Positions 30,345 to 45,246 of a stretch of 45,246 bases of DNA are shown in pieces. A program made the translations under genes and the position numbers. The notes beneath the pieces were generated by a model, which saw only the letters and a program-made list of their open reading frames with translations, ran no database searches and was not told the DNA's origin. Location: positions 1-45,246 of the IMG/VR virus record IMGVR_UViG_3300009184_005663; one strand, written 5' to 3'. The stretch is from a virus. Within the stretch, counting starts at the first letter, position 1; each line of letters begins with the position of its first letter.

Positions 30345-30587
30345 ATGAAAAAGTATTATCAAGTACAAAACTATGGCAATGGATTCATCACTCATCAAGA
30401 AAATGAATCCGCTCACGTTGCAGGTTATCCAGGCGATATCTGGGTAACTGAAAATACAGCATGGGCTCAGAGAGTAAATGCAGTGGAAAAAACCAAAGAA
30501 GAAGCACAGACTATTGTAGATGCTGCAGTTGCGGCTTCTTATGTTCCACCTAATAGTACAACACCTGCACCTATTGTTTTACCTTAA
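30345..30587 (+). CDS. Small phage protein (80 aa), unknown
   Basis: The 80-residue protein starts MKKYYQVQNYGNGFITHQEN and has a central Trp-rich portion (DIWVTENTAWAQRV). It ends in a helix of Ala and Val followed by a Pro/Thr-rich tail (PPNSTTPAPIVLP). The composition resembles small virion or fibre-associated proteins. No family is recognised. It has a long A/T leader after a terminator, so it may start a new transcription unit leading into the oxygenase/fibre block. Confidence 0.6.
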   Translation: MKKYYQVQNYGNGFITHQENESAHVAGYPGDIWVTENTAWAQRVNAVEKTKEEAQTIVDAAVAASYVPPNSTTPAPIVLP

Positions 30588-30597
30588 AAAAATAAAA

Positions 30598-31281
30598 ATG
30601 AATAAAGAATTAAAAATCGCAGAAGATTTACAGGAAATTTTACGTGTTTTAAATGAAGAAGACGCACAAACCATTTTAGCATTAAAAGATGAATTAGTAG
30701 ATAACTGGCATAAAAAGCAGATATTCAGAACAGAGACTGAGATGAGAGTTTCCGTCTTGAATGACGCTAAACACCCTACCAATGCTTCTAAATATTGGCA
30801 GTCTGTGAGAGAGATGTCAGCACATTTTGATGCCTTGATGAATTTATCATTTGATTTGAGAAAGAATACGGTAGAGAAGTTAAGATATGATAGACAATTA
30901 GAGGATTGGATAGAAGATCCTGATACTCATAGATTTGACATAATGGAACTTGAAATTGATATTGATAGAAATATTTATGATAGGTCTTGTATGTTACAAA
31001 TAGCAAAAGATAGAGTTAGGGAATTAAGTTTATGGAGTACTATTAAAAAAGAATTAGATGATAATTCGTTTGATGCAGAAAATGTAAATACACATCAAGC
31101 CGAATCATTACACAGATATTTTGAAAATAGAGTAAAATCTTTAAATGACTCTTCAGCACCTGGTGAAATTATTAATGCAATGGGACCTTATTTATCTTTT
31201 AACCGATTAAAGACTGATGATGGCAAATTAAGGAATTTTCTAGGGGAAGTAACAGATGACAAGAAAAATAAGTTAAAATAA
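30598..31281 (+). CDS. Helical phage protein (227 aa), unknown
   Basis: I start this at ATG 30598, after an A-rich leader; a longer frame exists upstream but overlaps the previous gene with non-phage-like hydrophobic sequence. The 227-residue protein is predicted nearly all-helical and charged (KIAEDLQEILRVLNEEDAQT, LVDNWHKKQIFRTETEMR). No signal peptide or catalytic motif is visible. No family is recognised; a structural or regulatory role is possible. Confidence 0.65.
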   Translation: MNKELKIAEDLQEILRVLNEEDAQTILALKDELVDNWHKKQIFRTETEMRVSVLNDAKHPTNASKYWQSVREMSAHFDALMNLSFDLRKNTVEKLRYDRQLEDWIEDPDTHRFDIMELEIDIDRNIYDRSCMLQIAKDRVRELSLWSTIKKELDDNSFDAENVNTHQAESLHRYFENRVKSLNDSSAPGEIINAMGPYLSFNRLKTDDGKLRNFLGEVTDDKKNKLK

Positions 31282-32070: not shown

Positions 32071-32652
32071 ATGAATTTTATTTATACAAAAAAAAATGCT
32101 TTATCAGCAAATACATGCCATCAGCTGATTAAAAATTTTGAATCATCTGAATTAAAACAGCCAGGTGTTTTATATGGTCCTAGTGGAATATCTTCAGATA
32201 GCGATAAAAAGTCAACAGACATAACATTTGACCCATCCTTCTTAAAAAAAGAAGGATGGGGTTTGTTATTAAATGAAGTAATTACAGTAGTTCAAAATGG
32301 AGTTTTAGACTATTTAAATAGACATTCTACTGCAATGACTAAAATGGATTCTATAGACTTATATACTTACTTTAATATGCAAAAGTATGAACCAAATGAA
32401 GGTTTTTATGGTTGGCATTGCGAAAGAGCAGGTGTAAAACATTCAGATAGATTGTTAGTATGGATGATATATTTAAATACTTTAACAGATAGAGGAGAAA
32501 CTGAGTTTTTCTATCAGCAACATTTTGAAGAACCTGAAAGAGGCAAATTAGTTATTTGGCCGTCAGATTGGACACATTTGCATAGAGGTGTTCCATCACC
32601 AACTCAGACAAAATATATTTTAACAGGGTGGTTTACTCACAATAAAGTATAA
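32071..32652 (+). CDS. 2OG-Fe(II) oxygenase (prolyl-hydroxylase-like fold)
   Basis: The 193-residue protein ends in a double-stranded beta-helix. YGWHCERAG (113-121) supplies the first metal His (116) with Glu118 in place of the usual Asp. IWPSDWTHLHRGVPS (162-176) supplies the distal His (169 or 171), and KYILTGWF (181-188) the 2-oxoglutarate-binding Lys/Arg. An N-terminal helical part (STCHQLI-like) is typical for P4H-type oxygenases. It would hydroxylate a protein side chain or a small molecule. It is the first of three oxygenase-like genes beside collagen-like and propeller fibres. Confidence 0.85.
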   Translation: MNFIYTKKNALSANTCHQLIKNFESSELKQPGVLYGPSGISSDSDKKSTDITFDPSFLKKEGWGLLLNEVITVVQNGVLDYLNRHSTAMTKMDSIDLYTYFNMQKYEPNEGFYGWHCERAGVKHSDRLLVWMIYLNTLTDRGETEFFYQQHFEEPERGKLVIWPSDWTHLHRGVPSPTQTKYILTGWFTHNKV

Positions 32653-32657
32653 AATTT

Positions 32658-33254
32658 ATGGAATTTTCAATACACGAAGAAAATTGGTTTTCAACTCCAG
32701 TATGGGAATCAGAGGTGACAAATGTAAATAATCAAGAAATAAAAGATTACTGCTTGTGGTTAAGAGATAATACAAAAGGCACTACTATATCAAATAGAGG
32801 AGGCTGGCACAGTAGTGAGATCATACAACCAATACCTGTTGATTTAACAAAACTATTTAATAATCTTGAAATATTTGTTAATCAAAATTGTTATAAGCAT
32901 ACAGGTATCGATAATTTAAAGTTTGGGAATTTTTGGGTTAATATTAATGAACCTGGTTCTTATAATTTACTACACGACCACCAAAACAGTATATTGTCTG
33001 GTGTATATTATGTATCAGTTCCATTTGACAATATGGGTGATTTGGTTTTACATAGAGGAGACACTGCACCATATTTTTTAAAATCAGACGTGGAGAGAAT
33101 TAGTACAAAAACAAATTCTTTTGTAGCTGTAAAAAAACCTTTAGAGTCTTTCTTTTATATATTTCCATCATGGGTTAAACATCATGTTGAATCTAATGAT
33201 TCACAAGGCGAAAGAATATCAATAGCATTTAATTTTGTTCCTAATAATAAATAG
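32658..33254 (+). CDS. TIGR02466-type 2OG-Fe(II) oxygenase-like protein
   Basis: The 198-residue protein has the order of features of the TIGR02466 family: W-x-N (FWVNINEPGSYN), LLHDHQNSILSGVYYV with the metal-site H-x-H, and FYIFPSWVKHHVESN carrying the distal His. RISIAFNF closes the barrel. These are putative 2OG-dependent oxygenases common in marine phages, with no known substrate. It is 5 bases downstream of a P4H-like gene and has a paralog immediately downstream. Confidence 0.82.
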   Translation: MEFSIHEENWFSTPVWESEVTNVNNQEIKDYCLWLRDNTKGTTISNRGGWHSSEIIQPIPVDLTKLFNNLEIFVNQNCYKHTGIDNLKFGNFWVNINEPGSYNLLHDHQNSILSGVYYVSVPFDNMGDLVLHRGDTAPYFLKSDVERISTKTNSFVAVKKPLESFFYIFPSWVKHHVESNDSQGERISIAFNFVPNNK

Positions 33255-33255
33255 T

Positions 33256-33894
33256 ATGAACCCACAAGTATTTTCACTGTTTCCAACACCTTTATATGTT
33301 GCAAATTACGATAAAGATTTAAAAAATGTAATTAATTATTTTGATAGTTGTGAGATGTTAGATACAAATAGTGGCTATGGAATGATTTCAAGTAATAGTT
33401 ATATTTTAGATAATCCTGTATGCAACGAATTAAATAAATTCTTAATGTCTTGTTTTGAAGATTTTGCAACAAATATTATGAGATACAGATTTAAAGAATT
33501 AGCATTTGCTCAATCTTGGTTAACTTATAAAAATCCAAACCAAATTCATAAGGCGCATACACATCCTAATACTTTATTAGCAGGAGTATTTTATTATGAT
33601 GCACATGAAGATGATGCAGCGATATGTTTTTCAAAAGAAGTAAAATCATTTAATAGGTCATATTTTGAGCCATCATTACATGATGATTATCAAAATCACG
33701 TCTTTTCACAAGAAGAAATTTACTACATGCCTAAGAAAAATGATTTTATTATTTTTCCATCATGGTTAACACATGGAGTGCCACCTAATAAAACAAATAG
33801 GACAAGAAAGGCGCTTGGGGTCAATGCTTTAACAAAAGGGACATTAGGTGATAAGGAAACAATTTCTGAAATAATTTTTGGTAGATACGTATGA
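33256..33894 (+). CDS. TIGR02466-type 2OG-Fe(II) oxygenase-like protein, paralog
   Basis: ATG 33256, one base after the upstream stop, is the best start (212 residues). The protein shows the same pattern: QSWLTYKNPNQIHKAHTHPN (first His pair), TLLAGVFYYDA, and FIIFPSWLTHGVPPN (distal His), followed by RKALGVNAL. It is a divergent tandem paralog of the preceding gene. The last bases overlap the sulfotransferase start by ATGA. Substrate is unknown; a virion or glycan target is plausible by position. Confidence 0.82.
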   Translation: MNPQVFSLFPTPLYVANYDKDLKNVINYFDSCEMLDTNSGYGMISSNSYILDNPVCNELNKFLMSCFEDFATNIMRYRFKELAFAQSWLTYKNPNQIHKAHTHPNTLLAGVFYYDAHEDDAAICFSKEVKSFNRSYFEPSLHDDYQNHVFSQEEIYYMPKKNDFIIFPSWLTHGVPPNKTNRTRKALGVNALTKGTLGDKETISEIIFGRYV

Positions 33895-34709
33895 AACAGA
33901 AAATATTTTTTAATTCAACACTACCTAGAAGCGGTAGCACATTACTTCAAAATTTGCTGGGACAAAACCCAGATTTCTATGTTACACCAACATCAGGTCT
34001 TATAGATTTGATGTTAGGCACACGAATAGGATATAATCAAAATTATGAATCAAAAGCTGGCGATGTTGAATTGTGGAAAGAAGGCTTTTATAAGTTTTGT
34101 TCACATGGAATAGAAGGTTATGTACGGTCACAAACAACAAAACCATATTATCTAGATAAAAATAGAGTTTGGGGATTTTACTATAATTTATTAGCACATA
34201 TTGTAGAAAAACCAAAAGTATTATATATGGTTAGGGATTTACCATCAATCTTTGCTTCAATGGAGAAGAAATTTAGGATGAATCCAGATAAAGATGATGG
34301 AACTATGGATAACATAAAAATGAAAGGAACAACAACTCATAAAAGAGTTGAATTATGGGCACAAACGCACCCTTTAGGTTATTCACTTGAAAAATTATAT
34401 CAGACATTATTAGATGGCACAGCTTCTAACTTTCTATTTATTAGATATGAAGATTTATGTATCAATCCTAATCATGTAATGAAAAGTATATATCAATATT
34501 TAGAGTTAGATGAATTTAAACACAATTTTCAACATATAAACCAAATAACAACTGAGAATGATGCAATACATGGAATATATGGAGATCATGTGATAAGACC
34601 ATCTTTACAAATGCTACCGAATGATTCAAAAGAAATATTAGGAATGCATACAATAGATTTAATTAAAGAGAATTATAAATGGTATTATGATTTCTTTGGG
34701 TATAAATAA
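33891..34709 (+). CDS. PAPS-dependent sulfotransferase
   Basis: The 272-residue protein has the 5'-phosphosulfate loop LPRSGSTLLQNLLG (11-24) and the 3'-phosphate motif YMVRDLPSIFASM (112-124), with Arg115 and Ser119 as ligands. It ends with an acceptor/dimer-like LFIRYEDLCINP segment, which is typical for sulfotransferases. PAPS would come from the host. It would sulfate a sugar hydroxyl or a protein. The gene sits at the junction between the tailoring genes and the first propeller gene, only 9 bases from it, so co-expression with the fibres is likely. Confidence 0.9.
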   Translation: MKQKIFFNSTLPRSGSTLLQNLLGQNPDFYVTPTSGLIDLMLGTRIGYNQNYESKAGDVELWKEGFYKFCSHGIEGYVRSQTTKPYYLDKNRVWGFYYNLLAHIVEKPKVLYMVRDLPSIFASMEKKFRMNPDKDDGTMDNIKMKGTTTHKRVELWAQTHPLGYSLEKLYQTLLDGTASNFLFIRYEDLCINPNHVMKSIYQYLELDEFKHNFQHINQITTENDAIHGIYGDHVIRPSLQMLPNDSKEILGMHTIDLIKENYKWYYDFFGYK

Positions 34710-34718
34710 AGATGAAAT

Positions 34719-35693
34719 ATGTCAAAATTACAAAGCACAGAAATAGTAGGTGTTGAAAATAGGCCAGCAACAATATGTTCAAATACGATGTGCATTTGGT
34801 TTGACACGACTAATTTAAGAACAGTCATTTCCTATTGTGGGTATGGCGGAGCATCAGTATGGTCAGCAGGTGGTGCCATAATAACAGGAAGACGTGAATT
34901 AGCAGGTCTTGGGACTCAAAATGCAGCATTTGCGGCTGGTGGTAATACAATAGCAGGAAGAACAGGAGTATCAGAAGAATATAATGGTGCAAGTTGGGCA
35001 ACAGGCGGTACATTAGCAACCGCAAGATATAGATTAGCAGGCGGCGGTTCACAGAATGAAGCATTTGTCGCTGCCGGTCGAACAACAAGTCCTGTTAATT
35101 TTACTGAAGAATATAACGGTGCAAGTTGGTCAGCTGGAGGTGCAATGATAAATTTTTGTAAAGTAAATTTAGCAGCGTCCGGAACCCAAAATGCTGGATT
35201 AGCAATGGGCGGTCAAGATGATCTTGGTAATTTTTGTTCAGCGACCACCGATGAATATGATGGGGCAAATTGGTCATCTGGAGGTACAATGAGTTCAGGT
35301 AGACAAACGCTAGCAGGAACAGGAACGCAGAATGAAACATTAGCAATGGGTGGTTTTATAGCTGCAGTTGCGTCATGTACAGAAGAATATAATGGAACAT
35401 CTTGGTCAACAGGCGGTGTAATGACAACAGCAAGACGTCAATTAGCAGGCGGCGGTACACAAAATGCAGCTTTTGTTACTGGCGGGTGTACTACTGCTGT
35501 TACTACAGCAACAGAAGAATACAATGGGGCCAGCTGGTCATCTGGCAATGTTCTATCCTGTGCTAGAGGGTGCTTAGGTAGTGCTGGCGACATAACAAAT
35601 GGATTAGCATTTGCAGGTGGAAATAATTCATATATAAGATGTACTGAAGAGTATAGCGCAGCACTGGCGATAATAGATAAGATAATATTATAA
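34719..35693 (+). CDS. Kelch-like beta-propeller fibre protein 1
   Basis: The 324-residue protein has a ~42-residue N-terminal module (MSKLQSTEIVGVENRPATIC, then CIWFDTTNL and ISYCG) followed by six ~44-residue blades. The blade pattern is W-S-x-GG-x-(M/L)-x-x-(A/G)R, LAG-x-GTQN, and (T)EEYNG-(T/A)S. Such repeats have the kelch hallmarks of a GG pair, YNG and W, so a six-bladed propeller is predicted. The tail ends LAIIDKIIL, shared with paralogs. Propellers on phage fibres may bind glycan receptors. This copy is the most diverged in the array (third blade altered, last blade lacks GTQN). Confidence 0.85.
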   Translation: MSKLQSTEIVGVENRPATICSNTMCIWFDTTNLRTVISYCGYGGASVWSAGGAIITGRRELAGLGTQNAAFAAGGNTIAGRTGVSEEYNGASWATGGTLATARYRLAGGGSQNEAFVAAGRTTSPVNFTEEYNGASWSAGGAMINFCKVNLAASGTQNAGLAMGGQDDLGNFCSATTDEYDGANWSSGGTMSSGRQTLAGTGTQNETLAMGGFIAAVASCTEEYNGTSWSTGGVMTTARRQLAGGGTQNAAFVTGGCTTAVTTATEEYNGASWSSGNVLSCARGCLGSAGDITNGLAFAGGNNSYIRCTEEYSAALAIIDKIIL

Positions 35694-35708
35694 AATAAGA
35701 TAAAGTAA

Positions 35709-35830
35709 ATGGCTAAATTACAAAGTACAGAAATAGTAGGAGTTGCAAATAGGCCAGCAACAATATGTTCAAATAGTGTTTGTATGTGGTTTGATACAAC
35801 TAATACTAAAATGGTTTTTTCGTATTGTGG
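35709..35830 (+). repeat. 122-bp direct repeat, copy 1 (shared with 36663-36784)
   Basis: The first 122 bases of this propeller gene, coding the N-terminal module up to SYCG, are base-for-base identical to the start of the next gene. The blade parts then diverge abruptly. Confidence 0.95.
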
Positions 35831-36647
35831 TTTAAGTGGTGCTGGTATATGGTCAGCAGGTGGTGCTTTAAGTATTGCTAGAGAATGTTTAGCTGGTGCA
35901 GGAACACAAAATGAATCATTTGTAGCAGGCGGCTTTTTTATTACAAATATATCAAATACTGAAGAATACAATGGTGCATCGTGGTCTGCTGGTGGTGCAT
36001 TACTAAATGCAAGACATGGTGCAGGTGCAGCAGGCACTCAGAATGCAGGACTTACTATGGGAGGGCCTTCTCTATCATGTACTGAGGAATATGATGGCGC
36101 TACTTGGACTGCTGGCGGAGTTATGATAACAGCAAGAAGAGGTCTTGCAAGCGCAGGCACACAAAATGAAGCATTTGCAGTAGGCGGTATAGGCGGAACT
36201 GGATGCACCGAGGAATATAATGGTGTAAGTTGGTCAGCCAGTAATGCATTAGGTACTGCAAGGGCTTGGTTAGCTGGAGCTGGAACTCAGAATGTAGGTC
36301 TTGTGATGGGCGGCTTTGTTGCAAGTAGTCTAGCGTGCACTGAAGAATATAATGGTACAAGCTGGTCAGCCAGTAATGCATTAGGCACTGCAAGGTATTC
36401 GTTAGCTGGAGCAGGCACACAAAACTTAGGTCTTGCTACAGGAGGTCGTTTAAATACATCATTATCATGTACTGAAGAGTATAATGGTACATCATGGTCA
36501 GAAGGTGGATCATTAATAACTGCACGAATGGGATTAGCAGGCTCAGGATCACAGTTTTCTAGTCTTGTAGCTGGTGGGTTTTCAAATACAACTGTAACAT
36601 GCACTGAAGAATACATTAAATTAGCTAATGTAGATATTAGTATTTAA
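35709..36647 (+). CDS. Kelch-like beta-propeller fibre protein 2
   Basis: This 312-residue paralog has the same N-terminal module (KLQSTEIVGVANRPATIC) and six blades. Blades 4 and 5 share the odd WSASNALGTAR start instead of WSAGG, pointing to internal duplication. The last blade has GSGSQFSSL where others have GxGTQN. The C-terminal tail is LANVDISI. Its first 122 bases are identical to the first 122 of the next gene, so the two have exchanged sequence recently. Confidence 0.85.
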   Translation: MAKLQSTEIVGVANRPATICSNSVCMWFDTTNTKMVFSYCGLSGAGIWSAGGALSIARECLAGAGTQNESFVAGGFFITNISNTEEYNGASWSAGGALLNARHGAGAAGTQNAGLTMGGPSLSCTEEYDGATWTAGGVMITARRGLASAGTQNEAFAVGGIGGTGCTEEYNGVSWSASNALGTARAWLAGAGTQNVGLVMGGFVASSLACTEEYNGTSWSASNALGTARYSLAGAGTQNLGLATGGRLNTSLSCTEEYNGTSWSEGGSLITARMGLAGSGSQFSSLVAGGFSNTTVTCTEEYIKLANVDISI

Positions 36648-36662
36648 TTAAAAATATAACTT

Positions 36663-36784
36663 ATGGCTAAATTACAAAGTACAGAAATAGTAGGAGTTGC
36701 AAATAGGCCAGCAACAATATGTTCAAATAGTGTTTGTATGTGGTTTGATACAACTAATACTAAAATGGTTTTTTCGTATTGTGG
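36663..36784 (+). repeat. 122-bp direct repeat, copy 2
   Basis: This is identical to 35709-35830 and codes the N-terminal module of the third propeller protein. Confidence 0.95.
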
Positions 36785-37622
36785 GTATGGTGGAGCAGGC
36801 ACTTGGTCAGCAGGGGGTGCAATGATAACCGCAATGTATGCTTTAGCAGGGGTAGGTACACAAAATGAAGGACTTGTTGCAGGAGGTGCATTAGTAAATA
36901 CAGCTGTATCATGTACAGAAGAATACAATGGTACATCATGGTCAGCAGGAGGGGCATTAGCAACAGGAAGATATCAATTAGCAGGAGCGGGTTCACAGAA
37001 TGAAGGACTTGTAGCAGGAGGGGGTAGCGGTGGAGTTTGTTCGTGCACAGAAGAATATAATGGCACATCTTGGGCAGCAGGGGGTGCAATGATAACAGCA
37101 AGAAGATTATTAGAAGGAGCAGGAACTCAGAATGAGGCATTTGTAGCAGGAGGTTTTACAAGTGTAAATTTATCTTGCACTGAAGAATATAATGGAACAT
37201 CATGGTCAGCAGGAGGTGGACTAATAACTACAAGAAGAAATTTAGCAGGAGCAGGTACACAGAACGTAGGACTTGTAATGGGAGGTTTAACAAATGTACA
37301 AGTATCATGCACAGAAGAATATAATGGCACATCTTGGGCAGCAGGGGGTGCAATGATAACAGCAAGATATACTTTAGCAGGAGCAGGAACGCAAAATGAA
37401 GCCTTTGTTGCAGGAGGTTATACAGATGTAATTGTAACTTGTACAGAAGAATATAATGGCACATCTTGGGCAGCAGGGGGTGCATTATCAGTTGGAAGAT
37501 ACCAATTAGCAGGAGCAGGGTCACAGGCCGCAGGACTTGTAGCAGGAGGTTATAATGTTGCAAATTTATCTTGTACCGAAGAATACACTAAACCATTAGC
37601 AATAATAGACTGTATTAAATAG
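36663..37622 (+). CDS. Kelch-like beta-propeller fibre protein 3
   Basis: The 319-residue paralog has the N-terminal module and six regular blades (WSAGGAMITA.., [22 protein letters not shown]). It is the most regular copy. Within it, 60-base segments at 37044-37103 and 37308-37367 are identical, showing very recent blade duplication or conversion. The last blade has GAGSQAAGL and ends SCTEEYTKPLAIIDCIK. It is predicted to form a six-bladed propeller on a short anchoring module. Confidence 0.87.
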   Translation: MAKLQSTEIVGVANRPATICSNSVCMWFDTTNTKMVFSYCGYGGAGTWSAGGAMITAMYALAGVGTQNEGLVAGGALVNTAVSCTEEYNGTSWSAGGALATGRYQLAGAGSQNEGLVAGGGSGGVCSCTEEYNGTSWAAGGAMITARRLLEGAGTQNEAFVAGGFTSVNLSCTEEYNGTSWSAGGGLITTRRNLAGAGTQNVGLVMGGLTNVQVSCTEEYNGTSWAAGGAMITARYTLAGAGTQNEAFVAGGYTDVIVTCTEEYNGTSWAAGGALSVGRYQLAGAGSQAAGLVAGGYNVANLSCTEEYTKPLAIIDCIK

Positions 37623-37632
37623 AATATAAAAC

Positions 37633-38592
37633 ATGGCAAAATTACAGAGTAGTGAAGTTGTTGGAGTTGCAAATAGACCAGCAACAATATGTTCAAATAC
37701 GATGTGCATTTGGTTTGATACAACTAATTTAAAAACGGTTATTTCCTATTGTGGGTATGACGGAGCAGGAGTTTGGTCAACAGGAAGTGCAATGATTTCA
37801 GTAAATATAGGATTAGCAGGCGCAGGAACTCAGAATGAAGGTCTTGCTATGGGTTCTAATATTAATCTTAATACAGAAGAATATAATGGCACCTCTTGGT
37901 CAGCTGGTGGTAATATGATAACAACAAGAGTAAGTGCGGCAGGAGCAGGAACACAGAATGCAGGACTTTTAATTAGTGGTGGTAATACTAATGCTACTGA
38001 AGAATATGATGGTACTACTTGGGCAACTGGTGGTAATGTAATAATTAGAAAAGGATATTCAGCAGGAGCAGGAACACAAAATGAAGCTCTTGCAGCTGCA
38101 GGATCTGTAGACTTTATTAGTAATACTAATACTTGTACAGAAGAATACGATGGGACATCATGGTCAACAGGATGTACAATGATAACAGCAAGAGCTTATT
38201 TAAGAGGTGTTGGAACGCAGAATGTAGGACTTGCAGCAGGTGGATACAATTCTGCTGGGGCCTGCGCATGTACAGAAGAATATAATGGCACCTCTTGGTC
38301 AGCTGGTGGTAATATGATAACAGTAAGAAGTCAATTAGGAGGTGCAGGATCGCAAAATTCTGGGTTAGTATTTGGAGGCAAAAATAGTTCAAATTTTAAT
38401 TCGGCTATTACTGAAGAATACAATGGGACATCATGGTCAACTGCTAATACATTAATAACAGCAAGAAGATTAATAGGTGGTACAGGTACACAAGGATTAG
38501 GATTAGCATTTGGTGGGTGTGTAAGTGCTTCAGTTTCCTGCACTGAAGAATACACTAAAGCGTTAGCAATAATAGATCGTATTTTATCATAA
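37633..38592 (+). CDS. Kelch-like beta-propeller fibre protein 4
   Basis: The 319-residue paralog has six blades. Its N-terminal module (KLQSSEVVGVANRPATICSN, CIWFDTTNLKTVISYCG) is closest at DNA level to the first gene of the array (ICSNTMCIWFDTTNL coded alike), not to its immediate neighbour. Blades 1-3 lack the usual Cys before EEYNG. Tail LAIIDRILS is conserved with paralogs 1 and 3. It starts 11 bases after the upstream stop. Confidence 0.85.
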   Translation: MAKLQSSEVVGVANRPATICSNTMCIWFDTTNLKTVISYCGYDGAGVWSTGSAMISVNIGLAGAGTQNEGLAMGSNINLNTEEYNGTSWSAGGNMITTRVSAAGAGTQNAGLLISGGNTNATEEYDGTTWATGGNVIIRKGYSAGAGTQNEALAAAGSVDFISNTNTCTEEYDGTSWSTGCTMITARAYLRGVGTQNVGLAAGGYNSAGACACTEEYNGTSWSAGGNMITVRSQLGGAGSQNSGLVFGGKNSSNFNSAITEEYNGTSWSTANTLITARRLIGGTGTQGLGLAFGGCVSASVSCTEEYTKALAIIDRILS

Positions 38593-38629
38593 ATCAATTT
38601 ATAGATATTTGAATATATAATAAAATAAC

Positions 38630-39466
38630 ATGGCTAAATTACAGAGTAGTGAAATAGTAGGTGTTGCAAATAGACCTGCAACGATATGTGTAAATACTGT
38701 TTGTTTATGGTTTGATACAACTAACCTAAAACCAATGGCATCTTATTGTAGTAGGAGTGGAGCAGGTACTTGGTCAGCAGGGGGTGCATTGATAACGGCA
38801 AGATATGGTATTGGTGTTATGGGGACACAAAATGAGGCATTAGCCGCAGGTGGGTATCAAAATACAGTTGTTGGAGTTAGTTGTACAGAAGAATATAATG
38901 GAACATCATGGGCTGTAGGGGGTGCACTTATAAATGCAAGATTATACCTTCCTGGGGCAGGTACACAAAATGAAGGACTTGTAGCAGGAGGTTTTACAAA
39001 TGTAAGCTTAGCTTGTACAGAAGAATACAATGGCACATCATGGTCAACAGGGGGTGCGTTAGCAACGGCAAGACATGCTTTAGCAGGAGCAGGTACACAA
39101 AATGCAGGACTTGTAGCAGGAGGTGCTGGCCCTTTATCATGCACGGAAGAATATAATGGTACATCTTGGTCAGCAGGAGGTGCATTAATAAATAGCAGAT
39201 ATGTAGTATCAGGAGCAGGTACACAAAATGAAGCATTTGTAGCAGGAGGCGTTACAACTGTATCTGTATCATCATGCACAGAAGAGTATAATGGAACATC
39301 GTGGTCATCAGGTGGAGCAATGATAACTGCAAGAGGATATTTATCAGGTGCAGGGTCACGAGGTGCTGGACTTGTTGTAGGTGGATATACTAATGGAAAT
39401 CCTGGTCTTGCTTGTACAGAAGAATACCTAAAATCATCATACACAATAGTAGATTGTATCTTATAA
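38630..39466 (+). CDS. Kelch-like beta-propeller fibre protein 5 (five blades)
   Basis: The 278-residue paralog has the N-terminal module ([20 protein letters not shown]) and only five blades, about 44 residues fewer than its neighbours. The last blade retains the terminal form (GAGSRGAGL) and the tail YTIVDCIL, so an internal blade has been lost rather than the end. A five-bladed propeller or an altered oligomer would result. The spacing to the upstream gene (37 bases) is larger than between the others, and an AT-rich leader precedes the ATG. Confidence 0.85.
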   Translation: MAKLQSSEIVGVANRPATICVNTVCLWFDTTNLKPMASYCSRSGAGTWSAGGALITARYGIGVMGTQNEALAAGGYQNTVVGVSCTEEYNGTSWAVGGALINARLYLPGAGTQNEGLVAGGFTNVSLACTEEYNGTSWSTGGALATARHALAGAGTQNAGLVAGGAGPLSCTEEYNGTSWSAGGALINSRYVVSGAGTQNEAFVAGGVTTVSVSSCTEEYNGTSWSSGGAMITARGYLSGAGSRGAGLVVGGYTNGNPGLACTEEYLKSSYTIVDCIL

Positions 39467-39494
39467 TTTACGTATAACAAAAAATAGTTTTAAT

Positions 39495-40370
39495 ATGAAT
39501 AAATACATTGTTTGGCACATCCAAGGTGGATTAGGAAAGAATGTTGCAGCAACAGGATTACCAAAAACAATAAAAGAAGTGTATAGTGACAGACAACTTA
39601 TAATGGTTGTATCCTATCCCGAAGTTTTCCTAAACAATCCCTATGTTGATAGAGTGTATCCGTTAGGTAATTGCCCCTACTTTTACGAGGATTTTATAGA
39701 GAATAAAGACGCTCTCGTTTTTAGACATGAGCCATATCATCAAACAGGTCATATACATAAGAATAAGCATTTGGTAAGCAACTGGTGCGACCTATTAAGT
39801 ATTCCTTATGAGAACCAGACTCCTCAGCTTTATCCTAACTATGCAGAAAAAGTAAATGCTAAAAAATGGTTTAGGGATAAGCCTGTCATCGTATTACAAA
39901 CATCTGGTGGTGAATTAGAATCAAAGACTACTTATTCATGGTGTAGGGACATGCCACAAGATATTGCGCAATTAGTTGTGGACAAATATAAAGATTCTCA
40001 TCATATATTTCATATATCACGAAGAGGAGGTTATATTTTAAATGGAGTAGAAAGAGTTGATATGAAATTATCTAATATGGAATTATTTAGCATGTTGACT
40101 GTATCATCTAAGAGATTTTTAATTGATTCATCTTTACAACATGCAGCAGTTGCTATTAATTTACCATCTACTGTATTTTGGATTGGAACATCTCCTCAAG
40201 TTTTTGGTTATGGTATTCATACAAATATCGTGGCAAATAAGATTAATAATAAGAATCATTTAATTGGTTCTTATCTGTTTGATTTTCAGTTTGACTATAA
40301 TGTACACGAGTGTCCATATAATAGTTTGGAAGAAATGTTTGATCTGGAAAAAATTATTAATATGTTATGA
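39495..40370 (+). CDS. GT9-like glycosyltransferase (heptosyltransferase fold)
   Basis: The 291-residue protein has a GT-B-like organisation seen in GT9. The N-terminus YIVWHIQGGLGKNVAATGL (4-22) resembles the G-x-G-(D/K) donor-domain loop, the middle has VIVLQTSGGE (131-140), and the C-terminal signature is FLIDSSLQHAAVAINLPSTV, then FWIGTSP. GT9 members typically move heptose from ADP-heptose. The gene lies between the propeller array and the S74 fibre, an unusual place for a transferase unless it acts on fibre proteins or host glycans. The first half of the gene is visibly richer in C and G than the second, suggesting a mosaic origin. Confidence 0.75.
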   Translation: MNKYIVWHIQGGLGKNVAATGLPKTIKEVYSDRQLIMVVSYPEVFLNNPYVDRVYPLGNCPYFYEDFIENKDALVFRHEPYHQTGHIHKNKHLVSNWCDLLSIPYENQTPQLYPNYAEKVNAKKWFRDKPVIVLQTSGGELESKTTYSWCRDMPQDIAQLVVDKYKDSHHIFHISRRGGYILNGVERVDMKLSNMELFSMLTVSSKRFLIDSSLQHAAVAINLPSTVFWIGTSPQVFGYGIHTNIVANKINNKNHLIGSYLFDFQFDYNVHECPYNSLEEMFDLEKIINML

Positions 40371-40644: not shown

Positions 40645-42057
40645 GTGGCCGGTTATAAAATTATCAATACAGGTGGTATAGGTCTTCAGACGGATAATGA
40701 AGGAGTTAGTATTCCTACTGCAAATGGCACAAGCGGTTTAAGAACTATAGGAACTCCTACAGGATCTATTATTTTTAATTTAGAAGATAATCAATTATAT
40801 TCATTTAATGGAACTTCATGGTTAAAAACAAATACCAGTGGATCTAGCGGCACGAGTGGATCTGCTGGATCAAATGGTACTGCTGGATCTAGTGGTACGA
40901 GTGGATCTAGTGGTACTGCTGGATCTAGTGGTACGAGTGGAATATCTGGCCCTCAAGGGTTACAGGGACCAATTGGTCCTCAAGGAGCAACAGGACCACA
41001 AGGAGCAATAGGACCTCAAGGGATATCTGGACCGCAAGGTTTACAGGGACCTATTGGTTCAGCAGGAACATCTGGCTCTTCAGGGACAAGTGGAACATCT
41101 GGTTCTTCAGGAACAAGTGGAACATCTGGTGCAACAGGAACAAGTGGAACATCTGGTGCAACAGGTCCACAAGGAGCACAAGGCCCAACAGGAACAACAG
41201 GTCCACAAGGTCCACAAGGAGCGCAAGGCATAGCCGGCACGAGTGGTTCTAGTGGTACTCGTGGTTCTAGTGGAACAAGTGGTTCTAGTGGAACAGCAGG
41301 CACATCTGGCGCAACAGGCCCGCAAGGAGCACAAGGTCCAACCGGATCAACAGGTCCAACCGGAACAACAGGTCCACAAGGAGCACAAGGTCCAACCGGA
41401 TCAACAGGTCCACAAGGAACACAAGGTCCAACCGGATCAACAGGTCCACAAGGAGCACAAGGTCCAACCGGATCAACAGGTCCACAAGGATCTGCTGGAT
41501 CTAATGGAACAACAGGTCCACAAGGAGCACAAGGTCCAAGTGCAGGAATAACATCATATACAAACCCAGCCGACAATAGAGTATTAACATCGGTATCATC
41601 TACAGCAATAAATTCTGAAACTAATTTAACTTTTGATGGAACCACTTTAACGGTTGTTGCAGGTGATTTAAAAATAACAGCAGGTTCAATTTCAGTAGGA
41701 GGTAATATAGCAAATAGTGCAACCGATGGTAGAATTGATGCAAGTAATGATATTGTAGCATTCTCAACATCAGATAGAAGATTAAAAGATAACATAAAAA
41801 ATATTGAAAACCCAATTCAAAAAATATTAAAACTAAATGGTGTTGAATTTGATTGGAATGAAGATTATTATAAAATTCATGGTTATGAGGGAAATGACAT
41901 TGGTGTGATTGCTCAAGATTTAAAAGATGTATTACCACAAGCATTAAGAATAAATGATAGTGGATATTATGCAGTTAGATATGAAAAAATTATACCATTA
42001 CTTATTGAATGCATTAAGGATTTAAATAGTGAAATAAAAATACTAAAAGAAAAATAA
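40645..42057 (+). CDS. Collagen-like tail fibre with C-terminal S74 intramolecular chaperone
   Basis: The GTG at 40645 opens a 470-residue protein. The N-terminus ([20 protein letters not shown]) and PTGSIIFN, then LYSFNGTSW, form the attachment module. Residues ~70-305 are collagen-like triplets: GTSGSSG blocks, then GPQG, and [12 protein letters not shown] units repeated in 36-bp DNA blocks. The C-terminus is a Peptidase S74 domain: SDRRLK (376-381) holds the Ser/Lys pair of the autocleaving chaperone, followed by [15 protein letters not shown] and [20 protein letters not shown]74 domains trimerise fibres and then cut themselves off. The N-terminal module is repeated in the gene at 43122. 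Confidence 0.92.
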
Positions 42058-42058
42058 A

Positions 42059-43045
42059 ATGCCTTTACCAAGTAGCGGACAAATATCATTTTCACAATTA
42101 GCAGCTGAATTAGGTAACGCATGTTTAAATGTAAGTCTTAGAAGTTATTCCGCTTGTGCCAATTTAACATCTCCTGATAGCATTATTGAGTTGTATGGGA
42201 AATCTTGTATACCTATATATGGTGGAGCAGGTGTCTGGTCAGTAGGGGGTGCAATGATAACTGCAAGACGTTCATCAGGAGGAGGAGGAACACAAAATGA
42301 AGTATTTATAGCAGGAGGTTATAATGGAGCTAATCTTTCTTGCACAGAAGAATATAATGGCACATCTTGGTCAGAAGGTGGTGCATTGTCTACAGCAAGA
42401 CATGCGTTATCAGGAATTGGAACACAAAATGCAGGACTTGTAGCAGGAGGTTATCCAGGTTACTCTAACACAGAAGAATATAATGGCACATCTTGGTCAA
42501 CAGAAAGTTCATTGATAACAGCAAGAGGATATTTAGCAGGTACAGGTACACAGAATGCAGGACTTACAGCAGGAGGTATTACACCACCTACAGTATCAGG
42601 TACAGAAGAATACAATGGTACATCTTGGTCAACAGGAGGTATATTGATAACTGCAAGATATGGGTTAGTAGGAATGGGCACACAAAATGCAGGACTAGCA
42701 ACAGGAGGGTATGCTGGTGGAAATCTATCATGCACAGAAGAATACAATGGTGCATCATGGTCAGAAGGCGGCACATTGATAATAGCAAGAGCATATTCAG
42801 CAGGTGCAGGAACACAGAATGAAGGACTTGCTATAGGAGGTTATGGAACTCCTGTATATGTTTCTTGTACAGAAGAATACAATGGTACATCTTGGTCAGC
42901 AGGGGGTGCTTTGATAACAGCAAGATGGGCGTCAACAGGAGCAGGGTCACAGGGCGCAGGACTTGCAGCAGGAGGTTATAGAAATACTTCTGTCTCGTGT
43001 ACAGAAGAATACAACAAATCAATCATAGGAAAATGTTTAGGATAA
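42059..43045 (+). CDS. Kelch-like propeller fibre protein 6 with tail-type N-terminus
   Basis: The 328-residue protein has a different N-terminal module: PLPSSGQISFSQLAAELGNA and then SPDSIIELYGKSC. This is typical of phage tail-associated proteins (SSGxISFSxL, ending with LYGKS). It then carries six kelch-like blades like those at 34.7-39.5 kb ([12 protein letters not shown], Gx[14 protein letters not shown]). The last blade has GAGSQGAGL. The tail ends KSIIGKCLG. It starts one base after the S74 fibre stop. The same blade set on two different N-termini shows that the propeller is a portable module. Confidence 0.85.
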   Translation: MPLPSSGQISFSQLAAELGNACLNVSLRSYSACANLTSPDSIIELYGKSCIPIYGGAGVWSVGGAMITARRSSGGGGTQNEVFIAGGYNGANLSCTEEYNGTSWSEGGALSTARHALSGIGTQNAGLVAGGYPGYSNTEEYNGTSWSTESSLITARGYLAGTGTQNAGLTAGGITPPTVSGTEEYNGTSWSTGGILITARYGLVGMGTQNAGLATGGYAGGNLSCTEEYNGASWSEGGTLIIARAYSAGAGTQNEGLAIGGYGTPVYVSCTEEYNGTSWSAGGALITARWASTGAGSQGAGLAAGGYRNTSVSCTEEYNKSIIGKCLG

Positions 43046-43121: not shown

Positions 43122-45246
43122 TTGGCTGGATATAAAATTATTAATACGAGTGGTATAGGTCTTCAAACCGATAATGAAGGACTCTCTATCCCTATTACAA
43201 CCAATATTAATTTGCTGAGTACTAGTGATATACCTACCGGTTCTATTGTTTTTAATACAGCGGATTCTCAACTATATGGATTTAATGGAACTAGTTGGAT
43301 TAAATCAGATACTAGTGGAACAAGTGGTTCTAGTGGGACAACGGGTTCTTCTGGAACTAGTGGTTCTAATGGAACAGGCGGTTCTTCTAGAACTAGTGGT
43401 TCTTCTGGAACAAGTGGAATTCAAGGCCTTCAAGGAGAACAAGGATATATTGGTCCACAAGGTGCAATCGGCCCACAAGGAATACAAGGCTCTATTGGGC
43501 CGCAAGGCGTACAAGGCATACATGGGACAAGTGGTTCTAGTGGGACAAATGGTTCTAGTGGGACAAGCGGTTCTAGTGGAACAACAGGTACAAGTGGAAT
43601 AGCAGGTCCACAAGGCCTACAAGGCAACACTGGACCACAAGGCAGCACTGGGCCGCAAGGTATACAAGGACTTATTGGACCACAAGGCATACAAGGTTCT
43701 AGTGGGACAAGTGGTTCTAATGGGACAAGTGGTTCTAGTGGGACAAGTGGTTCTAGTGGAACAAGTGGTTCTAGTGGGACAAGTGGTTCTAGTGGGACAA
43801 GTGGTTCTAGTGGGACAAGTGGAATAGCTGGTCCGCAAGGACCACAAGGACCACAAGGTGTAAGTGGAACAAATGGTTCTAGTGGGACAAGTGGAATTAT
43901 TGGGTCTCAAGGCCCGCAAGGACTGCAAGGCATACAAGGCCCGCAAGGCTTGCAAGGTGCAGCAGGCCCACAAGGTTTGCAAGGTGCAGCAGGCCCACAA
44001 GGTTTGCAAGGTGCAGGAGCAAGCACAGTCTCTTCCGAATCAAGGCCTTCTCCCATAAATGCAGATCAAATGTGTTTATGGTTTGACACAACAAATAAGA
44101 TGCCAATGGTTTCTTACTGTATTAACACATCATTAGTAGGTGCTTGGTCAGCAGGGGGTGCATTGATAACAGCAAGAGGTTATTCATCAGGAGCAGGAAC
44201 ACAAAATGCAGGACTTGCTTTTGGTGGGACTAATCTATTAACTTGTACTGAAGAATACAATGGTACAAGTTGGTCAGTAGGGGGTGCAATGATAACAGCA
44301 AGATATGCTTTGGCAGGCGCAGGAACACAAAACGAAGGTCTTGCAGCAGGTGGTTTTACAACTGTAGCAGTATCATGTACTGAAGAATATAATGGCACAA
44401 GTTGGTCATCAGGTGGCGCAGTTATAACAGTAAAATATTTTTGTGCAGGAGCAGGTACGCAAAATGCAGGTCTTACTATGGGAGGAGCTCCTGCTCCTTC
44501 ATTATGCACAGAAGAATACAATGGCACATCTTGGTCAGTAGGTGGTGTAATGATAAACGCAAGACAACTATTAGCAGGTGCGGGAACACAAAATGCAGGA
44601 CTTGCTATGGGAGGTACTTACAATGTTACTTTATCTTGTACAGAAGAATACAATGGTACATCTTGGTCATCAGGAGGTGCTTTGATAACTGCAAGGCATT
44701 ACCTAGTAGGAGCAGGAACACAAAATGAAGGACTTGTTTTTGGGGGGTATACGGGTGTGAGTATGTCTTGCACAGAAGAATACAATGGTACATCTTGGTC
44801 AACGGGTGGTGCATTAGCAACTGCACGTTATGGTCCATTTACAGGAGCAGGTACACAAAATGCAGGTCTTGCAGCAGGAGGTACAGCAGGTGGTGTTACT
44901 AGAACTTGCACAGAAGAATACAACGCACCAACCGAAATTGTTGACCGTAGTTTAGACTCATCATATATTACAGCAGAATATTCAGAACGACCTAACTTAG
45001 TTGATACAGGAATGTGTTTGTGGTATGATAGAGAAAACAATGTACCGATGATTACCTATAAAGGAGGTACACTATTAATTGGTGCTTGGTCAGCAGGTGG
45101 AGTTTTAATAACAGCAAGAGCTACTTTAGCAGGCGCAGGTACACAAAACGCAGGACTTGCAATAGGAGGTTTTGGCGCGGGCAGCAATTTATCATGCACT
45201 GAAGAGTATAATGGAACAATATGGTCTGCAGGAGGTGCTTTAATAA
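43122..45246 (+). CDS. Mosaic fibre: attachment module, collagen-like shaft, two kelch-like propellers (3' truncated)
   Basis: From TTG 43122 the frame is open to the window end (708 codons). The N-terminus ([19 protein letters not shown], then PTGSIVFN and GFNGTSWIK) copies the S74 fibre module. Residues ~65-305 are collagen-like, alternating GTSGSSG and GPQGxQG blocks. Then [19 protein letters not shown], a cousin of the propeller N-terminal module, leads into a six-bladed propeller. A linker with [19 protein letters not shown] starts a second propeller, of which about 1.3 blades are visible. The TTG start is supported by alignment with the GTG start of the S74 gene. The C-terminus lies outside the window. 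Confidence 0.85.
43695..43820 (+). repeat. Seven tandem 18-bp units (GSSGTS)
   Basis: GGTTCTAGTGGGACAAGT is repeated seven times with only two substitutions (one AAT for AGT, one GGA for GGG). It codes collagen-like shaft triplets in the mosaic fibre. Near-perfect DNA identity implies recent expansion. Confidence 0.9.

Follow-up and report, generated by a model that had tools for sequence, protein, structure and literature searches.

Kelch proteins and the exchange of host-recognition parts are both known from phages. In virions of phage CBB, the kelch protein CBB_552 was detected by mass spectrometry (PMC5259590), and giant phages more widely have proteins of kelch fold (CBB_550, CBB_552 and CBB_554 of vB_PcaM_CBB; virion structural proteins of Noxifer and PhiPA3), present in more than one copy and with at least one detected in virions. 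Alteromonas phages share fibres, and in the accessible part of that study tail-fibre tips or host-recognition modules move among distant phages by recombination, fibre and chaperone travelling together (PMC10579305). In pelagimyophages, a host recognition cluster has been described (PMC7029224). In this study, we analysed a tandem array of five kelch genes in a T4-like water-borne phage, IMG/VR virus record IMGVR_UViG_3300009184_005663, whose 45,246 bases, probably a fragment of a genome, are referred to here as the window. Likeness of the encoded proteins to the giant-phage kelch proteins is at the level of the fold only (12–18% identity), and the CBB report, in its accessible text, gives no account of types of conserved gene ends (sockets) or of exchange of the propellers between them (heads). 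With the pelagimyophage cluster the array shares the character of a T4-like fibre-gene island with glycosyltransferases beside structural genes, but that paper contains no mention of kelch and describes no slotted array. Unlike in fibre exchange, in kelch arrays it is whole small propellers that are replaced, each within a short gene whose ends are conserved, and a genome has several such genes in tandem. Within the open-licence literature, this socket and head architecture appears to be new, whereas kelch proteins in phage virions and exchange of fibre tips were already known.

The five genes all lie on the + strand, with 10–37 nt between neighbouring open reading frames (ORFs). Gene 1 (34719–35693; 324 aa) is slot A-like, with a socket of 43 codons (34719–34847), a six-bladed head and the C-tail AALAIIDKIIL. 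It is followed by gene 2 (35709–36647; 312 aa), with a slot B N-terminus; gene 3 (36663–37622; 319 aa), with slot B N- and C-termini; gene 4 (37633–38592; 319 aa), with a slot A N-terminus; and gene 5 (38630–39466; 278 aa), with slot C N- and C-termini. When split units are read together, genes 1 to 5 have 6, 6, 6, 6 and 5 blades. Compared with gene 3, the kelch genes show 57–68% identity, well beyond chance, and all five begin with a module of about 43 residues, M(A/S)KLQS(T/S)E(I/V)VGV.NRPATIC.N..C.WFDTTN....SYC. The original prediction, made from the letters of the window, of a multi-gene system of five consecutive paralogs with an N-terminal module and kelch blades was thus confirmed by the ORFs, module and blade counts. 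It had also placed copies at 42059 and 43122. Both carry propellers; the module is absent from the former (gene 6, 42059–43045, + strand), a six-bladed propeller with a different N-terminus (MPLPSSGQISFSQL...), and lies internally in the latter (gene 7, 43122–45246, + strand), a collagen-like fibre that is cut by the window end and holds a complete propeller at about 44028–44945, then a partial second one. A separately assembled, near-identical contig (L001) has this array too and differs by one substitution over 16.6 kb, so the five blades of gene 5, one fewer than in the slot C genes of relatives (316–324 aa), are real and not a sequencing slip. The sole substitution falls in gene 2 and is uninformative on population variation. 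The window and this twin both run out inside the kelch repeats of one and the same gene (14460–16745 in L001), which is the outcome to be expected if assemblies break at repeats; kelch repeats have been found to be commoner in long reads than in assemblies (PMC9238414). On the − strand, several long antisense ORFs of up to 207 aa track the repeat codons across the array (34825–39480) and look like mechanical artefacts of them.

Structurally, the propeller fold anticipated by the original prediction is supported by an AlphaFold2 model of gene 3, built from a 38-sequence alignment (mean predicted local distance difference test score (pLDDT) 92; predicted template modelling score (pTM) 0.85), which forms a closed ring of four-stranded blades with kelch topology. 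Foldseek matched the model to KLHL17, KLHL12, NS1-BP, KEAP1 and the designed protein SAKe6 (E about 1e-15), and VIA-align placed it on kelch structures at Z 31–32 and a root-mean-square deviation (rmsd) of 1.9–2.5 Å, with KEAP1 at Z 31 and rmsd 1.9 Å over 239 residues. The phage protein is like KEAP1, KLHL12 and SAKe6 in fold, blade repeat, and the positions of the GG and Trp residues, but shares only about 20% identity with them and is standalone, without a BTB domain. PHROG phrog_27227, of function unknown, matches all seven kelch proteins of the window (E 5e-37 to 3e-52). The phage propellers do not reach the Pfam Kelch cut-off: for Kelch_1 only gene 6 gave a match, at 16.1 bits against a cut-off of 20.1, and the other window propellers gave none. 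Judging from the model, the window propellers are sequence-divergent members of the kelch fold.

Comparison with related genomes, as the original prediction had proposed, revealed how the genes are built. In the four relatives with exactly three kelch genes (L002, L005, L006 and L007), the N-terminal 43 residues are 94.8% identical within the same slot versus 76.7% with other slots, and the C-tails 86.5% versus 52.5%; the propellers carry no slot signal (59.8% versus 59.5%). The socket order in the window is A, B, B, A, C, and because these relatives carry three genes where the window has five, its array is an expansion. Recombination can be separated from fast selection by comparing the codons used for identical amino acids. 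In this test, same-slot synonymous-codon identity was 89.7% [84.8–93.9] for the N-terminal socket and 93.9% for the C-tail, versus 57.2% [54.0–60.5] for the propeller. Propeller values were 58.9% between slots and 59.3% between paralogs within one genome, and the flanking genes of the trio genomes had 64–92%. The synonymous codons agree with the slot result, so head replacement has taken place through recombination between conserved ends; with point mutation alone, one would not expect silent sites to become scrambled mid-gene while the gene ends are spared. The slot-specific ends further point to the joint production of several different proteins.

Direct cases of exchange were found between closer relatives. 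The contigs L110 and L136 differ over exactly one propeller. Close to the array, the sequence flanking the affected kelch gene is 91–93% identical on either side; their alignment breaks off at codon 41 of this gene and resumes near the C-tail, and the adjoining kelch gene retains its head. A similar within-gene pattern is seen between L109 and L119. When p227, a conserved gene often adjoining kelch arrays, was used as an anchor, 10 of 18 gene pairs looked swapped at an anchor identity of 0.83–0.93 and 0 of 5 at ≥ 0.96, counts that are not independent, as some pairs share a member. Blades can also be lost: L109 and L116 differ by an in-frame 47-codon deletion of exactly one blade, which offers a model for the five-bladed gene 5. 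The claim that the system recombines is thus directly supported in the relatives, both for heads exchanged between conserved ends and for one clean one-blade deletion. A nearest-neighbour comparison of single blades gave few convincing non-homologous blade moves, mainly short matches. The kelch ORF at 14856 of L086 measures 711 nt, against 1083 nt in the near-identical L085 and L087, and is possibly a truncated copy or an assembly error. The original prediction had envisaged alternative receptor-binding heads, for which switching of expression would be one route. Diversity-generating retroelement (DGR) and invertase switching found no support: neither reverse transcriptase (PF00078) nor resolvase/invertase (PF00239) was found in 16 related records, most of them genome fragments; no convincing pair of inverted repeats lies around the array, and the genes are closely spaced on one strand. 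Expression switching was accordingly not borne out.

Within the blades, variation is concentrated at few positions. Of the blade columns in an alignment of 152 blades, the eight most variable are 13, 14 and 31, with the rest within 35–47. Columns 13 and 14 follow a conserved Arg, column 31 follows GG, and 35–47 make up the BC loop, which varies in length too. Mean entropy is 3.22 bits in these eight columns versus 1.12 bits elsewhere; as the set was picked after the entropies had been seen, its p-value of 6e-6 is descriptive only. Columns 13, 14 and 31 are dominated by Tyr, Gly, Arg, Ser and Phe, a composition that would resemble many binding sites. In an alignment to SAKe6, which we take to be KEAP1-derived, the Ser and Gly of 'RSG' and the Tyr of 'GGY' fall at these three columns. 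When the contacts are assigned to columns by KEAP1 numbering, the blades of the phage proteins vary at the positions where KEAP1 contacts its ligands. These contacts comprise Ser363, Gly364, Arg415, Ser508, Gly509, Ser555, Ala556, Ser602, Gly603, Tyr334, Tyr525, Tyr572, Arg483 and Phe577 (PMC4931237).

The arrays also sit where receptor-binding heads are to be looked for, in a tail-fibre region. On the L002 contig, the kelch trio (about 9–12 kb) lies between gp23, which is at one end, and a sheath gene at 26.1 kb, so the relatives with this array are T4-like myoviruses. In L048, a very different small phage, a kelch trio directly follows the head and tail genes. The propeller is also borne by collagen fibres with tail-fibre PHROG matches. 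Indirectly, this fibre-gene setting, the propeller on collagen fibres and the virion kelch protein of another phage make plausible that the window proteins belong to the virion surface, as the original prediction had it.

Taken together, we read the array as a multi-slot set of host-recognition (receptor-binding) heads on conserved sockets, with a probability of about 0.62. Each gene encodes a socket, made up of about 43 residues at the N-terminus and about 15 in the C-terminal tail, with a six-bladed head in between. At least three socket types, A, B and C, occur in a fixed order in related phages, and because they keep this order, the products would probably occupy different virion positions and not replace one another. 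In each blade, the BC loop and the loop that follows the conserved Arg would form the ligand-binding face, whose positions vary almost freely on a nearly fixed scaffold. Whole heads are swapped when genes recombine between their conserved ends, and a single blade is gained or lost when repeated blades recombine. The proteins would attach to the virion and bind glycans or proteins of the host surface, with all slots in use simultaneously. A receptor-binding head should pair a conserved part for attachment with a ligand-facing part that changes fast and recombines, and the genes combine the two. Several points weigh against this reading. The measurements of head exchange come from relatives, the window being practically identical to its only near twin, and some of the swapped pairs overlap in their members. 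In INPHARED, only weak matches were found (Paenibacillus phage phiERICV and Synechococcus phage S-SKS1) and no closer cultured relative. Finally, the kelch proteins are standalone, without a shaft, S74 domain or recognised virion-attachment domain, so that a role in capsid decoration is also compatible.

In this main rival, the propellers would form a mixed-composition decoration of the capsid or tail sheath, docked on repeated lattice sites by the short N-terminal module and giving weak multivalent adhesion, similar to Hoc or to immunoglobulin (Ig)-domain decorations, in place of specific receptor binding at the tip of a fibre. Besides the lack of a shaft, it draws on the proximity of the array to gp23 in the L002 and L003 contigs, on the three socket types, which could fit three lattice sites, and on CBB, a phage with kelch proteins that bears whiskers along its tail (PMC5259590). 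We nevertheless consider it unlikely: neighbouring collagen-like fibres carry the same head, the array lies amid fibre and glycan genes in the T4-like contigs examined, and host recognition would explain the rapid turnover of heads no less well. Sequence cannot decide between a receptor-binding head and a decoration layer, although receptor-binding heads are the most likely role.

Alternatively, the propellers could be binding proteins that act inside the cell or after release and not on the virion, diversified against targets of host or competitor as KEAP1-like adaptors, decoys or counter-defence proteins. Kelch domains usually mediate protein binding, and some relatives adjoin non-structural genes, but the location next to fibre genes, with capsid genes on one side and sheath genes on the other, the presence of this domain as a fusion on collagen fibres, and the kelch protein in CBB virions (PMC5259590) make this quite improbable. 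Still less probable is that no heads are exchanged and that ordinary point mutation under selection has driven rapid divergence, function conserving the sockets while the heads became saturated. A strongly constrained scaffold could indeed let unrelated-looking heads align well; in the heads, however, synonymous codons differ equally within and between slots while those of ends and flanking genes do not, and the boundaries in L110 and L136 are abrupt, so that for these genomes divergence by point mutation only is already contradicted by the codon comparison. We give least credence to an enzymatic role, in which the propellers would act on glycans of the host like a galactose oxidase or a glycosidase. 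Galactose oxidase does have the kelch fold, and matches in BFVD include proteins of that name, but the conserved residues (W, GG, GTQN, EEYNG) repeat in every blade, and this reading is disfavoured because none is confined to one blade, as in a catalytic centre.

If the array is indeed a set of host-recognition heads, widespread uncultured phages would recognise their hosts via a kelch scaffold on which sockets and binding face can be identified from sequence, and head type would be a candidate for predicting host range in metagenomes. Many natural variants of a single binding scaffold would also become available, in the fold that has already served for designed SAKe proteins, and the question why phages keep several paralogous adhesins would become testable. 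A wider version is tentative and, in our view, rather doubtful: an antibody-repertoire-like recognition system, with a fixed six-blade scaffold, a hypervariable face, heads swapped among at least three simultaneously filled sockets and p80 as a partner, spread over T4-like and small phages and over different host phyla.

The gene p80 (30345–30587, + strand) is a small (about 80 aa) conserved gene near kelch arrays with the family pattern ..GKGFITHED..GYPGNVWV...VEKTKAEAQAIVDA...LP. Queries from kelch loci were used to search for it, and among the best 80 matches, to which these rates apply and not to remote p80 relatives, 78 loci have a kelch gene, 72 of them within 500 bases; one locus without a kelch gene is cut at a contig edge. 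No consistent family in Pfam or PHROGs and no consistent PDB match was found for p80. Being family-less yet near kelch genes, it merits attention and may be an attachment or assembly partner. Its neighbour p227 (30598–31281, + strand) encodes a conserved helical protein whose model gave no significant PDB match and no known fold. A kelch gene is present at 60 of 80 p227 loci, and p227 was rejected as an obligate kelch partner, since it also stands beside small replication-type genes, sulfotransferases and a terminase-like gene without kelch; the terminase-like neighbour is in L104.

Between 16.6 and 34.7 kb, the window holds methyltransferases, glycosyltransferase-like genes, three 2-oxoglutarate (2OG)-Fe(II) oxygenases (32071–33894, + strand; starts 32071, 32658 and 33235) and a sulfotransferase (33891–34709, + strand) directly upstream of the array. 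In gene content, this stretch closely resembles the pelagimyophage host recognition cluster (PMC7029224). Directly downstream follows a 291-aa gene (39495–40370, + strand), which had no Pfam or PHROG match and is glycosyltransferase-like by eye only. Relatives have these genes in a conserved arrangement, in which p80 and p227 are followed by the oxygenases, the sulfotransferase, the kelch genes and the 291-aa gene. A collagen-like fibre with a Peptidase_S74 (endosialidase-type) chaperone domain comes next (40645–42057, + strand). As for promoters, the T4 late motif TATAAATA was rejected as a signal: it had 15 matches versus 14.65 expected, and the copy at 34701 before gene 1 is no evidence.

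With regard to the host, a Shine-Dalgarno-like motif was found in 0 of 45 window genes, where an A-rich leader would give 0.46 by chance, so that the signal is the contrast between phages and not the zero itself. The motif precedes 0 of 75 genes in six T4-like relatives (L002, L005, L012, L022, L026 and L037), whereas small kelch phages have it in 6/18 (L048), 3/9 (L052), 6/12 (L110), 5/10 (L103) and 9/16 (L121) genes; the gp23-bearing contig L054 has 2/11. Bacteroidota typically do without Shine-Dalgarno use, and three of the eight relatives found in genome collections are metagenome-assembled genomes (MAGs) of Flavobacteriales. The host of the window phage is thus possibly a member of the Bacteroidota, and the kelch module may cross host phyla. 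As a last observation, the three oxygenases lie near the two collagen-like fibres (40645–42057 and 43122–45246), whose collagen repeats they could hydroxylate.

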